Assembly (NCBI RefSeq): GCF_047663525.1
Contig: NC_092587.1
Location: 146,560,001-146,624,000, forward strand
Length of the DNA stretch: 64,000 nucleotides
DNA from: Anas platyrhynchos
Lineage: Eukaryota > Chordata > Aves > Anseriformes > Anatidae
Direction of reading: 5' to 3'
The notes under the pieces are model-generated. The model was not told where the DNA came from. It did not search any database and saw nothing but the letters and a program-made list of their open reading frames with translations. Both the position numbers and the translations under genes were made by a program. Shown here in pieces: positions 51,596-57,884 of this stretch (the stretch's first letter is position 1; every line of letters begins with the position of its first letter).

Positions 51596-53028
51596 ATGGT
51601 GTGGAAGGCTTAGGTTCAGTGTTTGAGAAGTTATTGAGCTTTTCCTAGGAAGCAGCAGAAGGACAAACTCAGCTAGATTTTTTTTTCTCCAGATTTTAGA
51701 ATGATTAATCCTGTATAATTTATGATACAAGCAGGTATTTCTGGCCCAAATACCTGTAAATGGTATACGCTGTCTAGTGATACCTGTTGCATGAAAGTAC
51801 AAACTATGACTTGTCTCCTGGCCTTAATACTTGCAAAATTCAACTCTGCTCATCTTTTCTGCTAAACTTCTGCAGTTTTGTTTCAAAACTTTCAACCATA
51901 AGCAAGATTAATAGACTTGTAAAATACTACTATCGTCTCCCATGTAAGTACGAATGTAGCCTCGTAAAGAACAAACAGACAAGAAAAACAAATGTGACTG
52001 TAGAAGAAAGGGATTAAGCTATTAAACGGTGAAGAAACAGTACTTTATTAGAAGGAATAACTCATCCGAGTTGTCTGTACCTATAAAGTATAATGACTAG
52101 TGATGAGAAGATGCTATCTTTTCTAATAAAGGGGGACACCGCTGTAGTAATTACAGAGTATTTCATACAGCAACATTCAGCTAAGCTAGAGAAAGAGAAT
52201 GGGGGCAGTGTTTCTTACATGTATATATATGTAAGTTGTTATATCCTCAGTATCTGCATTTATGGAATGTGTCTGAAGGTTTTGAAATGGATGCTGCTCG
52301 TATTAAGAATTCTGAACGTTATGCTGATAAAAACATAGCTACCAGAGTATTTATGTTACATAAATGATGTGCTAGATCTACAAAATAAGTTACAGAGCAG
52401 TTGCACGGTTTGTCGCTCTGGTTGCAGGTTCCCTTGGTTCTCACTGCTGTAAATTTAGATCTTCACTATCTACTTTTAGATCTACTTTTGGGCAAATTAC
52501 TGAAGCCTGGCAAGCCACTACTATACTTAGAAGATGCACCTTCCTATTTTTTTTCCTGTGATGATGGACAAAAGTTCTCGCTCAGCAAATCAGTGGGGAT
52601 AATTTGAACCGGTTTATGAAGTGTTATCTCATTTGTACGTGTAATTACTGCCCCGTGTGTGGCACGGTGGTTAACTTTTTTGCAGGAACGGCTCTTCCTG
52701 GGTCTCGCTTGAACTCCCTCTGGATGCCTTTCCTCTGCTGAGCCGCGATTACGGGCTCACAGCCCCGTTAGCTGCCTTTAATCGCCGACAGCGCCTCAGC
52801 GCCTGCCAGGCGTGAGGGAGCCGGGCTGCCCCCGAGCCGGGGGATCGCCGCTGACGCTCCGAGAACACACGAGGCAGAGAGCGGCCTTTCTCGGGGCGGA
52901 GGCAGCAGAGTTTTATTTTTATTTTTTAATTATTTATTTATTTTTTAACAAAACCACGCCCCCACCACCACCACCACGCCGCTGCATTTCCAAGGGCGGG
53001 AGCCGAGCAGCGCCGCCCCCCTCATGCC

Positions 53029-53088
53029 GGAGCCGCCCCTCTCGGACCGGAGCCGCCCCTTTCGGGTCGGAGCCGCCCCCCTCGGGCC
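53029..53088 (+). repeat. 20-bp GC-rich tandem repeat, three copies plus a part
   Basis: Units begin GGAGCCGCCCCTYTCGGRYC at 53029, 53049 and 53069. A degenerate fourth starts at 53089 with GGGGCCGCC. The copies differ at only a few positions. Confidence 0.8.
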
Positions 53089-53193
53089 GGGGCCGCCTCC
53101 GGGGAGCGGGGCTGGGGGCGGTCGCCCCGCGCCGGCCCCTCAGCCCCGAGCAGGCCGCCCGTTGCTAAGGGCCGCGCCGCCCCGGGGGCTGCC

Positions 53194-54390: not shown

Positions 54391-54401
54391 GCCGGATGAA
54401 A

Positions 54402-54537
54402 ATGTTGAGTCCTGCGAACGGCGAGCAGCTGCACCTCGTGAACTATGTGGAGGATTACCTGGACTCCATCGAGTCGATGCCCTTCGATCTGCAGCGAAAT
54501 GTCTCCTTGATGAGGGAAATTGACGCCAAATATCAAG
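54402..54537 (+). CDS. ING1: ING1 coding exon 1 (exon 1b)
   Basis: 45 codons plus one base, ending ATATCAAG|gtaagt. The start at 54402 (MLSP) is preferred over 54396 because it matches the canonical protein and has A at -3, whereas the first ATG has C at -3. The frame is open upstream of the ATG from at least 53892 through low-complexity sequence, but without an ATG. Confidence 0.95.
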
Positions 54538-55162: not shown

Positions 55163-57884
55163 TGTGTGTGTGTGTGTAAGGGGGGGGCACACGGCCGGCC
55201 CCACGGATGTGCCCAGCGCCCAGCTCTGCCTCCCTGACGGGCCGAGGGAAGGAGAAGGGGCAGGGGCAGGGCCGGCCGGCGCGGGGCAGCCCTGTGGCAG
55301 CTTTGTCACTCGCTGTCCGCTGGGGAAGGGGAAGGGGGAGGGGAGGGCTCTCCCCGGCGCCGCTGACAGCCGGGCGGGGAGGAGGCGCCCGGAGCCCCCT
55401 GCCCTCTCTCGCTGTCCGCGGCCGCTCATGAGAAGAGGGGAAAAAAGGGGCCGGGGAAAAACTTCCTTGGGCGGGGAGGCGGCGATGGCGGGGCAGGGCG
55501 GGCTGAGGCACGCCGCCGCCGCTCCCGCGTCCTAGCACCGCGCGGCCAGCGGGCGCCTCCGCGCTGTGCGGGGCGCTCGGCGTCGGCGCGGCTTTTATAA
55601 CCGCCCCTCGTTAGCATAGCGCCGCTCGCCCCGCCCCCCGGCGGCGCTGATAGGGCGGCGCGCTCCTCGGGGGGCGGGGCCTGCCCGCCTCCGCTCGCTG
55701 ATTGGCTCGCAGGGCGGGCCGTCCCGCCCGGCGCCCCGCCCCCTCGCCCCGTGACGTTTCGAGAAGCAACTTTTCGGTGGCGTTGATTTGAATATCTCGG
55801 CCTGCCCCGGCCGCCGGCCGCTGATTGGCTGCGGCGCCGGCAGTGGGCGGGCCAACCTCGGCCTCCCCTTTTTCACTCTCCGGGCTCTGATTGGACGGCG
55901 CGAGGGGGCGGGCTCTGCCCGCCGCGCCCTCTGATAGGCTCGGCGCCTCCCTTGGCCCCGCCCCCTCCCCGCGCCCCTCCTCCCCCGCCTCGGCCGTTGC
56001 GCTGCCAACCGGGGGCCCGCCGCCGGCTTCCGGCCGGAGAACAATAGCCGCTGCGTCACTTCCGGGGCGCGGCCGGTTGCTAGGCAGGGGCCGGGCCTGG
56101 CGGCGCGGCGCTTCCGGGGCGCGGGGCGGGCCGTTGGGGCCGTTGGGGCCGTTGGGAGCGCGGTTATAACGCTCGCTCCCGGTTAATAAACAATTAACGA
56201 ACCGACTAACGCGGCTCCTGTCGTTACTGGGCACGGGCGGGGGGCTGCAGGCGGCATCCCCCAAAGCAACACTCGGGAAGTGGTGCTGCCAATGGGCTCA
56301 TAAGCGGCTCCCTGGAGCTCTGAGCACCTGAGGAATGTTTCACTTTAAACTCTTTAAGCTCTCCTCAGGTGTCACTCACGGCCCAGCAGGGTTTCACTGT
56401 TAGCGTCTTAAATCATCAAGGAGCTTTATCCATTCCCCTCGCCATAAATCATCTTTAACGCTGCTCCTTAATTTTAACTCCTTCCTTGCAGCAAATATGT
56501 GGTGAAAAATTACACAAAAAGTAAGCCACAGGTGTTGTACAGAGCCCACAGGGAGAAAACAGCCCCCTCGCCTTCCATACAGCAGCGGCAATTCTGTACC
56601 CGCAGGGAGTTCATCGCCCGCGGCAGTGCCGGGTGAATCTCCCCAAAACTTAGCTCTGGCCCTGTGTGTTTGGGGTCGTGCCTCAGCTGCCAGGCACAAT
56701 AACAATTGCTAAGTAATTTGTTGTCTGATTCCTGCACCAATTTGTGCTTCCTTTCTCTTCTCCCACTCCCCGTCATTCACCACAAGCATCAGCCTTATCG
56801 GACAGAAAATGCCCTAGAAAACAATCCATTAACTCCCCTTTCAATTCCACAGCTGATGCTGGAACTTGTGGCGATCCGTGTATTTTCTGTTCTCTTTAAT
56901 TACTGACAAAGGGAAGAGCTGTCACCGTGTGTGAGATTATATTTAGTCTCGTTTTTTTCTAAATCAGCACTTGCGTTCTGTTCCTGAGGGACCTCCTGGG
57001 ACAAAAATATTCCGCTGGAGTCATGAGCCACTTGTCAGATTTCAGCTTTGGGGAGCCTGTCTTTGATCAGCCTCGTGCATTACAAAAAGGTGTTGCTGTG
57101 TGGAAGGAAAAATGCGGGAAGGCTTTCCTTCACCGTCCTCTCGATCTGAAATACTCACGGTTTTTACTTCTTCCTTGCAGAGATTCTGAAGGACCTGGAT
57201 GATTACTATGAAAAATTCAAACGAGAGACAGATGCTGTGCAGAAAAGAAGAATGTTGCACTGCATACAGAGAGCGCTGATTCGGAGTCAGGAGCTGGGCG
57301 ACGAGAAGATCCAAATCGTCAGTCAGATGGTAGAGCTTGTCGAGAACAGAACCAGGCAAGTGGACAGCCACGTGGAACTGTTTGAGACGTGCCAAGAGAC
57401 TAACGACACCACTGGGAACAGCGGCAAAGCCAGCCAAGATAAGTCAAAGAACGAGACAATTGCCCAGGCTGAGAAGCCCAACAATAAGAGGTCAAGGCGG
57501 CAAAGGAATAACGAGAATCGAGAAAATGCTTCAAATAATCATGATCACGATGACATCACCTCAGGAACTCCAAAGGAGAAGAAAGCAAAAACATCCAAGA
57601 AGAAGAAGCGATCCAAGGCTAAGGCGGAGAGGGAAGCTTCTCCTCCAGACCTTCCTATTGATCCCAATGAGCCAACATACTGCTTATGCAACCAAGTCTC
57701 CTATGGAGAAATGATAGGATGCGATAATGACGAGTGCCCCATCGAGTGGTTTCACTTTTCCTGCGTGGGACTCAACCATAAACCAAAGGGCAAATGGTAC
57801 TGCCCCAAATGTCGAGGAGAAAATGAGAAAACTATGGACAAGGCATTGGAGAAGTCTAAAAAAGAAAGGGCCTACAACAGGTAG
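54402..57884 (+). CDS. ING1: Inhibitor of growth protein 1, p33ING1b-type (whole coding region, two exons)
   Basis: ING1 is a chromatin reader of Sin3/HDAC complexes that binds H3K4me3 and influences p53 pathways, senescence and apoptosis. The two exons, 54402-54537 and 57181-57884, join across a 2643-bp GT-AG intron in phase 1 and encode 279 residues, the length of human p33ING1b. The N-terminal ING domain starts [20 protein letters not shown]. The basic nuclear-localisation region includes KKKKRSK. The PHD finger spans about residues 210-258 with zinc ligands C213, C215, C226, C231, H237, C240, C253 and C256; Y212 and W235 are the expected trimethyl-lysine cage residues. The polybasic tail is [11 protein letters not shown] methionine at residue 70 (57252) matches the start of the short p24 isoform. 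An upstream in-frame ATG at 54396 would add Met-Lys. Confidence 0.97.
55132..55177 (+). repeat. (TG)n microsatellite in ING1 intron 1
   Basis: About 46 bp of TG repeat with a single gg interruption like that of the 54.1-kb copy, followed by a G run. Confidence 0.85.
55592..55599 (-). promoter_or_regulatory. Minus-strand TATA box TATAAAAG
   Basis: The plus strand reads CTTTTATA in an otherwise GC-rich context, giving a perfect TATAAAAG on the minus strand. Upstream on that strand is the CCAAT array at 55647-55938. A start near 55565, antisense to ING1, is predicted. Confidence 0.5.
55647..55938 (-). promoter_or_regulatory. Array of five CTGATWGG elements (inverted CCAAT boxes)
   Basis: CTGATTGG occurs at 55698, 55821 and 55887, and CTGATAGG at 55647 and 55931. 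On the minus strand the first three read CCAATCAG, a textbook NF-Y core. Spacing is 51, 123, 66 and 44 bp. Such repetition in 290 bp is unlikely by chance. Confidence 0.6.
56052..56124 (+). promoter_or_regulatory. CRE-like/ETS cluster with duplicated CTTCCGGGGCGCGG
   Basis: TGCGTCACTTCCGG (56052-56065) joins a CRE-like half to an ETS site. A 14-bp block, CTTCCGGGGCGCGG, occurs at 56059 and again at 56111. Between them GGTTGCTAGGCA (56075-56086) resembles an RFX X-box. This is a TATA-less promoter type about 1 kb upstream of ING1 exon 2. Confidence 0.45.
56131..56157 (+). repeat. Three tandem CCGTTGGGG units
   Basis: A 9-bp unit CCGTTGGGG is repeated three times, the last ending in A. The CCGTTG core matches the MYB consensus on the opposite strand (CAACGG). 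Confidence 0.8.
57181..57884 (+). CDS. ING1: ING1 coding exon 2 (PHD finger)
   Basis: It begins after tacttcttccttgcag, completes Glu46 and continues for 233 residues to TAG at 57882-57884. It encodes the rest of the ING domain, the lysine-rich nuclear-localisation region, the PHD finger ([19 protein letters not shown]) and the polybasic tail. All known ING1 isoforms share this exon. Confidence 0.97.

Follow-up and report, generated by a model that had tools for sequence, protein, structure and literature searches.

A candidate two-way CpG-island promoter with an antisense-facing TATA box in ING1 intron 1 of Anas platyrhynchos

Results

A separate CpG island in ING1 intron 1

The stretch of DNA analysed here (the window; 64,000 nucleotides) is located on contig C1 (207 Mb) of a bird genome comprising 1.26 Gb in 42 contigs. 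It carries ING1 on the plus strand, with a CpG island between its exons:

54396..54537, plus strand: coding part of ING1 exon 1b, followed by a strong splice donor (AAG/GTAAGT)
55400..56199, no strand: intron-1 CpG island (GC content 0.73-0.78, CpG observed/expected 0.85-1.18, in 200-bp steps)
57181..57884, plus strand: ING1 common exon, encoding the ING N-terminal domain and the PHD finger

The PHD finger of the common exon scored slightly below the Pfam cut-off, and its best match in the PDB was 2qic (ING1 PHD, E 5.9e-41). Elsewhere in the window, an open reading frame on the minus strand at 36.8-37.3 kb matched a class I (C) tRNA-synthetase domain, and a further CpG island was found at 47.0-47.6 kb; by synteny, both fit CARS2, which we take to be the neighbouring gene. 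The intron-1 island, with exon 1b to its left and the common exon to its right, is separate and contains all of the minus-strand promoter motifs reported below. In the paralogue ING2 of the same bird, the CpG island spans 5.8-7.4 kb of the reversed locus (L011). It surrounds exon 1, whose peptide is encoded at about 6.7 kb, and reaches into the beginning of intron 1; the remainder of that intron, to about 9.2 kb, holds no separate second island.

Core promoter motifs on the minus strand

The original prediction had placed three perfect CCAATCAG boxes, two CCTATCAG variants and one TATAAAAG on the minus strand of this block, all of which were recovered as exact matches. Together with a candidate initiator, they are arranged as follows, with offsets counted from the predicted start:

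55565..55570, minus strand: initiator CGCACA (BBCABW), predicted A+1 at 55567
55592..55599, minus strand: TATA box TATAAAAG, read from 55599 to 55592
55647..55654, minus strand: CCTATCAG variant at -87 with a broken CCAAT core; WGATAR (TGATAG) on the plus strand
55698..55705, minus strand: CCAATCAG box at -138, the nearest perfect CCAAT; CTGATTGG on the plus strand
55821..55828, minus strand: CCAATCAG box at -261, with the best NF-Y-like context among the five boxes
55887..55894, minus strand: CCAATCAG box at -327
55931..55938, minus strand: CCTATCAG variant at -371

Scored with an approximate matrix, the minus-strand TATA box reached 11.4 bits, compared to 4.8 bits for the next-best TATA-like site in 55200-56300. 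The A+1 of the initiator and the first T of TATAAAAG are 32 nt apart, so that the minus strand carries a consensus TATA box with a matched initiator. The nearest CCAAT had been put about 100 bp upstream of the TATA box, in agreement with a perfect core at 55705-55701 that ends 102 bp before the first T. Less exact was the description of the block as the classical layout of a strong focused promoter. The TATA box and initiator conform to it, but the usual CCAAT slot near -80 does not: no intact CCAAT is present at about -60 to -100, the first one being located at -138, and because the slot holds CCTATCAG with its broken core (-87), the layout is not quite classical. Among the intact boxes, the one at 55821..55828 matched an NF-Y consensus at 14 of 16 positions.

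A CDE/CHR-like element (TGGCG-N4-TTTGAA) is present at 55778-55792, with the CCAAT core of 55828-55824 located 31 nt away. A cell-cycle module combining such an element with CCAAT was considered and left unproven, as TTTGAA turns up in 598 of 5000 island shuffles.

Promoter signs on the plus strand

The right-hand side of the island carries promoter signs of its own:

56027..56117, plus strand: presumed promoter core with ETS-type sites, an X-box-like site and a GC-skew flip
56162..56171, plus strand: weak TATA-like GGTTATAACG (3.2 bits), the best plus-strand candidate downstream of the CCAAT array

Three copies of the ETS-type motif CTTCCGG are located on the plus strand (56027-56033, 56059-56065 and 56111-56117), accompanied by an X-box-like GTTGCTAGG at 56076-56084. 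GC skew moves from -0.325 (55950-56049) to +0.253 (56050-56149), a change from negative to positive that is usual at plus-strand CpG-island starts, and it becomes negative again from about 56.3 kb. Left of 55567, plus-strand GC skew is positive, as would be expected under ING1 sense transcription and not under strong antisense transcription.

CCAAT boxes are functional in either orientation, and CTGATTGG on the plus strand is an inverted CCAAT of the Y-box type. The minus-strand orientation of the boxes therefore sets no direction. The original claim that the promoter points away from exon 2 holds in part: the TATA box and initiator do face the minus strand, but the island also carries plus-strand signs at 56.03-56.2 kb. 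Promoter motifs are thus found on both strands of the island, the plus side contributing the ETS-type and X-box-like sites and the weak TATA-like site. It is this combination of minus-strand core elements with plus-strand signs and skew on the right that leads us to read the block as a putative two-way promoter. Between the minus-strand TATA box and the presumed plus-strand start lie 430 to 570 bp, a long distance if both are to share a single core. According to a review, CCAAT boxes and CpG islands are usual in two-way promoters and TATA boxes are rare in them, at 9% against 29% (PMC4730256), making the TATA box the unusual part of the ING1 intron-1 element.

Candidate transcripts in the two directions

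Two further features bear on the RNAs that such a promoter might produce:

54351-54346 and 54337-54332, minus strand: two AATAAA hexamers within an A-rich tract, at which an antisense RNA may end
56518..56526, plus strand: splice donor AAA/GTAAGC (last exon base 56520), possibly of an alternative non-coding ING1 first exon

The complement of this A-rich tract is the sequence that immediately precedes the ING1 start codon on the plus strand. Being located in such a tract, the hexamers may have arisen by chance.

A transcript from the predicted start had been proposed to run antisense through the ING1 first exon and its promoter. Crossing of exon 1b is indeed predicted; overlap with the upstream ING1b promoter is doubtful, since the hexamers are located about 1.2 kb downstream of the start, past exon 1b, and an RNA extending into that promoter would have to read through them. 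A single minus-strand splice donor above 7 bits (54459) precedes the hexamers, and the antisense RNA is probably short (about 1.2 kb) and unspliced, crossing exon 1b.

In the sense direction, the donor at 56520 scored 8.0 bits with a crude matrix and is the only plus-strand donor above 7 bits from 56.0 kb to the common exon. No in-frame ATG is present upstream of it, so a sense RNA using this donor would lack coding sequence ahead of the common exon, and its translation could start at an internal methionine, as that of p24ING1c does. An alternative exon that is coding and shares its frame with the common exon was also considered and rejected, as this best donor lacks an upstream ATG. From 55.9 kb to the common exon, an in-frame ATG precedes two of the seven donors above 3.5 bits (56368, 3.5 bits; 57089, 4.0 bits), both of which are weak.

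The same features can be accommodated by a one-way sense promoter, which we regard as possible, if doubtful. NF-Y, Sp1 and ETS factors would then drive a plus-strand first exon near 56.05-56.2 kb, with the minus-strand TATA box giving at most an unstable upstream antisense RNA without a role. The ETS-type and X-box-like sites, the skew flip at 56.03-56.1 kb and the donor at 56520 are all consistent with this alternative, as is the ability of CCAAT to work in both orientations. Short-lived upstream antisense RNAs have an early poly(A) signal and few donors, a pattern matched here by the hexamers and the single preceding minus-strand donor. Moreover, several N-terminal isoforms have been described for mammalian ING1 (PMC2968421, PMC3154856, PMC6896041). 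However, the sole consensus TATA box and its matched initiator face the minus strand, not the plus strand. Published data on human cells likewise argue against an unstable by-product: one study recovered its antisense transcripts, for the most part unspliced, from poly(A)-selected RNA (PMC5663069), and ING1as was among the most expressed antisense RNAs in another, though in infected cells (PMC5886697).

Motif clustering against shuffled and genome-wide controls

Chance expectation within the island was derived from 5000 dinucleotide shuffles of 55200-56200. The observed counts of CCAATCAG (three) and CCNATCAG (five) were each reached in 0 of 5000 shuffles, compared to 329 of 5000 for the three bare CCAAT motifs. 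The single TATAAAAG was present in 18 of 5000 shuffles, and a TATA box with initiator in 9 of 5000. The full layout was defined as a TATAWAAR, an initiator located 28-34 nt downstream of it and three or more CCAAT located 40-350 bp upstream. It was observed once; none of 5000 island shuffles contained it, compared to 6 of 200 shuffles of the whole window. A weaker result was obtained for 8-mers that were not preselected, at least three copies being found in 31 of 2000 shuffles for 8-mers with at least four A/T and in 215 of 2000 for those with at least three A/T. Single motifs were not enriched over the 64 kb (CTGATTGG, 4 against 3.21 expected; CTTTTATA, 4 against 2.56 expected).

Genome-wide, CCAATCAG followed by TATAAAAG at a spacing of 85 to 115 nucleotides occurred 23 times (11+12), against 24 (9+15) for the reversed-pattern control. 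CpG-rich DNA was found at only two of these 23 places, ING1 intron 1 (L036) and a locus on C15 (L051). As the pair is not enriched and the island cluster goes beyond its shuffles, what is non-random is the cluster inside the CpG island, not the pair. This clustering, like the motifs themselves, the island and its gene context, is directly observed. The three-box CCAATCAG geometry gave 25 matches in nine places genome-wide and none in the control. Eight of the nine places (20 of the 25 matches) were followed up, with the C39 place left out. Among these eight, the ING1 place was the only one with a same-strand TATA box 40-200 nt after a box; tandem-repeat arrays overlapped six of the other seven and did not overlap the ING1 place.

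These controls bear on the idea of an open CpG element bound by NF-Y, an enhancer or nucleosome-free region with background initiation only, in which the TATA box is a chance match. The lack of pair enrichment genome-wide, the occasional appearance of TATAAAAG in the island shuffles and the seven other CCAATCAG clusters without a TATA box at the same distance all point in this direction. We nevertheless consider it unlikely, since TATA box, initiator and at least three CCAAT never arose jointly in the island shuffles. Another alternative, disfavoured as very improbable, is that the block drives a so far unrecognised protein gene on the minus strand or a histone-type gene, or that it belongs to a retroviral LTR: CCAAT and TATA boxes are typical of such promoters and a 163-aa minus-strand ORF with a stop codon (ATG at 55429) exists, but none of six scanned island ORFs (five minus, one plus, including the frame of the 55429 ORF) matched Pfam at E 0.1, the window gave no Rfam and no tRNA match, and a genome search that skips very common words returned, instead of multiple copies, the island itself and one partial 134-bp match at 72%, so that its sequence is apparently single-copy. 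These tests thus lent no support to a histone-type, protein-coding, tRNA, Rfam-type or repeat/LTR reading. The partial match (C39:3685191-3685324) was rejected as a copy and is read as a different CpG island with CCAATCAG motifs.

Discussion

We assign a probability of roughly 0.55 to the reading of the ING1 intron-1 block as a CpG-island promoter that works both ways. In such a promoter, the island would be kept open by NF-Y bound to the CCAATCAG array and by Sp1-type factors at its numerous GC boxes. Leftward, TATAAAAG and the initiator would set a focused start at about 55567, and the resulting unspliced RNA of about 1.2 kb would cross exon 1b and terminate with the poly(A) signals of 54.33-54.35 kb, making it the bird counterpart of human ING1as. 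Rightward, initiation at the ETS-type sites would yield an ING1 transcript with an alternative, non-coding first exon spliced from 56520 to the common exon, and translation of this RNA from an internal methionine would give a p24ING1c-like protein. Convergent transcription through exon 1b could then dampen the p33ING1b isoform whenever the intronic promoter is active. Binding of NF-Y and TBP, the two transcripts and their possible influence on isoform choice are what we infer from the sequence. Overall, the element is plausible, modestly novel and unproven.

ING1 is a tumour suppressor, and a two-way intronic promoter, if true, would offer a simple route for isoform choice within one gene. Its N-terminal isoforms have been associated with different outcomes, ING1a with growth arrest and senescence and ING1b with strong effects on apoptosis (PMC3589274, PMC6896041). 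A bird counterpart of ING1as, if true, would also mean that viral infection alone does not account for this antisense RNA. A more far-reaching version would posit a switch built into ING1 across vertebrates, in which cell-cycle or stress activation of the island lets an intron-1 TATA/NF-Y promoter send antisense transcription across exon 1b and shift output from p33ING1b to the short internal-methionine form, the human ING1as of infected cells representing the same ancient element; we hold this to be quite improbable.

Comparison with known systems

Searches for relatives yielded 26 pattern stretches in public genome contigs, none of which was confirmed, and no relative in viral contigs, either by protein or by one DNA pattern. 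Within the genome, the other CpG-rich CCAATCAG-TATAAAAG place is a CpG-island promoter (G000:C15:18835567; L051/L055), which shares this pair with the ING1 block and differs in having its CCAAT close to the TATA box. An ORF nearby gave a weak Ras-family match below the cut-off (E 0.0042), and Rfam gave no hits at this place; our guess is that it could be the SNHG19 snoRNA host beside RAB26.

In the literature searches, PMC5663069 and PMC5886697 were the sources naming ING1as among the matches listed. A link between ING1 and NF-Y returned a single match, on plants by its title; the ING1 exon 1a promoter returned none, and p33ING1b was not named among the matches listed for alternative promoters.

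Mammalian ING1a and ING1c first exons resemble the bird arrangement in providing extra N-terminal isoforms (PMC3589274, PMC3154856, PMC2968421). In the mouse, the ING1a-specific sequence is described as lying just upstream of the third, p37ing1-coding shared exon (PMC3589274). The bird locus differs in that its best donor lacks an in-frame ATG and its sense first exon is a predicted one. A tblastn search of the island with a provisional human sequence of the ING1a-specific peptide gave 26.2 bits, compared to up to 32.3 bits for 50 shuffles, and thus no sign of homology. Human ING2b (PMC2968421) offers a further contrast, the bird ING2 having one CpG island that extends from exon 1 into the start of intron 1.

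A parallel in a bird is the chicken GHR-AS-I6/CCDC152 system, in which an antisense RNA of GHR arises from a two-way promoter driven by NFYB (PMC5663575). It shares with the ING1 element a CCAAT/NF-Y-type promoter and an antisense RNA, both predicted at ING1. Its core, however, measures 102 bp between head-to-head transcripts, whereas the ING1 elements extend over about 600 bp within one intron.

Antisense transcription at ING1 itself has been published for both human (PMC5663069) and chicken (PMC4444097). The chicken liver data comprise ING1 antisense tags of low abundance, given in the portion of that source available to us without a position in the gene or a start site (PMC4444097). Human ING1as is classified as 'Convergent, spliced 5' UTR, asTSS in 5' UTR intron' (PMC5663069), so an antisense start in an ING1 intron is not without precedent. 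In another study, open chromatin was clearly induced at three of 11 validated antisense RNAs, ING1as being one of them (PMC5886697). The bird element, with its predicted antisense start in ING1 intron 1, was compared with ING1as by published description. The two would be alike in being antisense to ING1, in starting from the 5' UTR intron and in converging with the sense 5' end. They differ in that ING1as is described as upregulated in HSV-1-infected human fibroblasts; a start of the human or the chicken antisense RNA at the orthologous site is putative. Taken together, the bird element is probably a version of a known kind of feature, with antisense transcription from the same intron already reported in human.

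Additional motifs and repeats around ING1 exon 1b and intron 1

Between the minus-strand CCAAT boxes of the CpG island in ING1 intron 1, and nearby as tandem repeats, the following elements were found:

55752-55756, TGACG, adjoining the heat-shock-element half pair, between CCAAT boxes
55758-55765, heat-shock-element half pair TTCGAGAA, between CCAAT boxes
55778-55792, plus strand, CDE/CHR-like sequence motif TGGCG-TTGA-TTTGAA
56128-56156, exact repeat of GGGCCGTTG, 3.2 copies, right edge of the island
53012-53097, 4.3 tandem copies of the 20-bp unit GCCGCCCCCCTCGGGCCGGA, within the CpG island that precedes ING1 exon 1b

The CDE/CHR-like element is separated by 31 nt from the CCAAT core at 55828-55824. 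It may be a sign of cell-cycle control; it was not significant in a shuffle test.

Similar sequences elsewhere in the genome

A promoter-like, CpG-rich block on another contig (L051/L055, G000:C15:18835567-18835671) carries a CCAAT array and TATAAAAG, with the pyrimidine stretch CCTTTCC downstream. A nearby ORF shows weak Ras/Rab likeness, and the locus is perhaps a snoRNA host gene. A second CpG-rich stretch (L002:1501-1634, G000:C39:3685191-3685324) is 72% like the ING1 block, with two copies of CCAATCAG and TGACGTCA sites close by, a likeness that probably reflects shared motifs only. Finally, CCAATCAG and CTTCCGC recur in tandem arrays at L025-L031 (G000:C35:179361-180051) and L014-L015 (C13), with a unit of ~68 bp and 11.3 and 5.9 copies, respectively, forming striking minisatellites of putative NF-Y sites.
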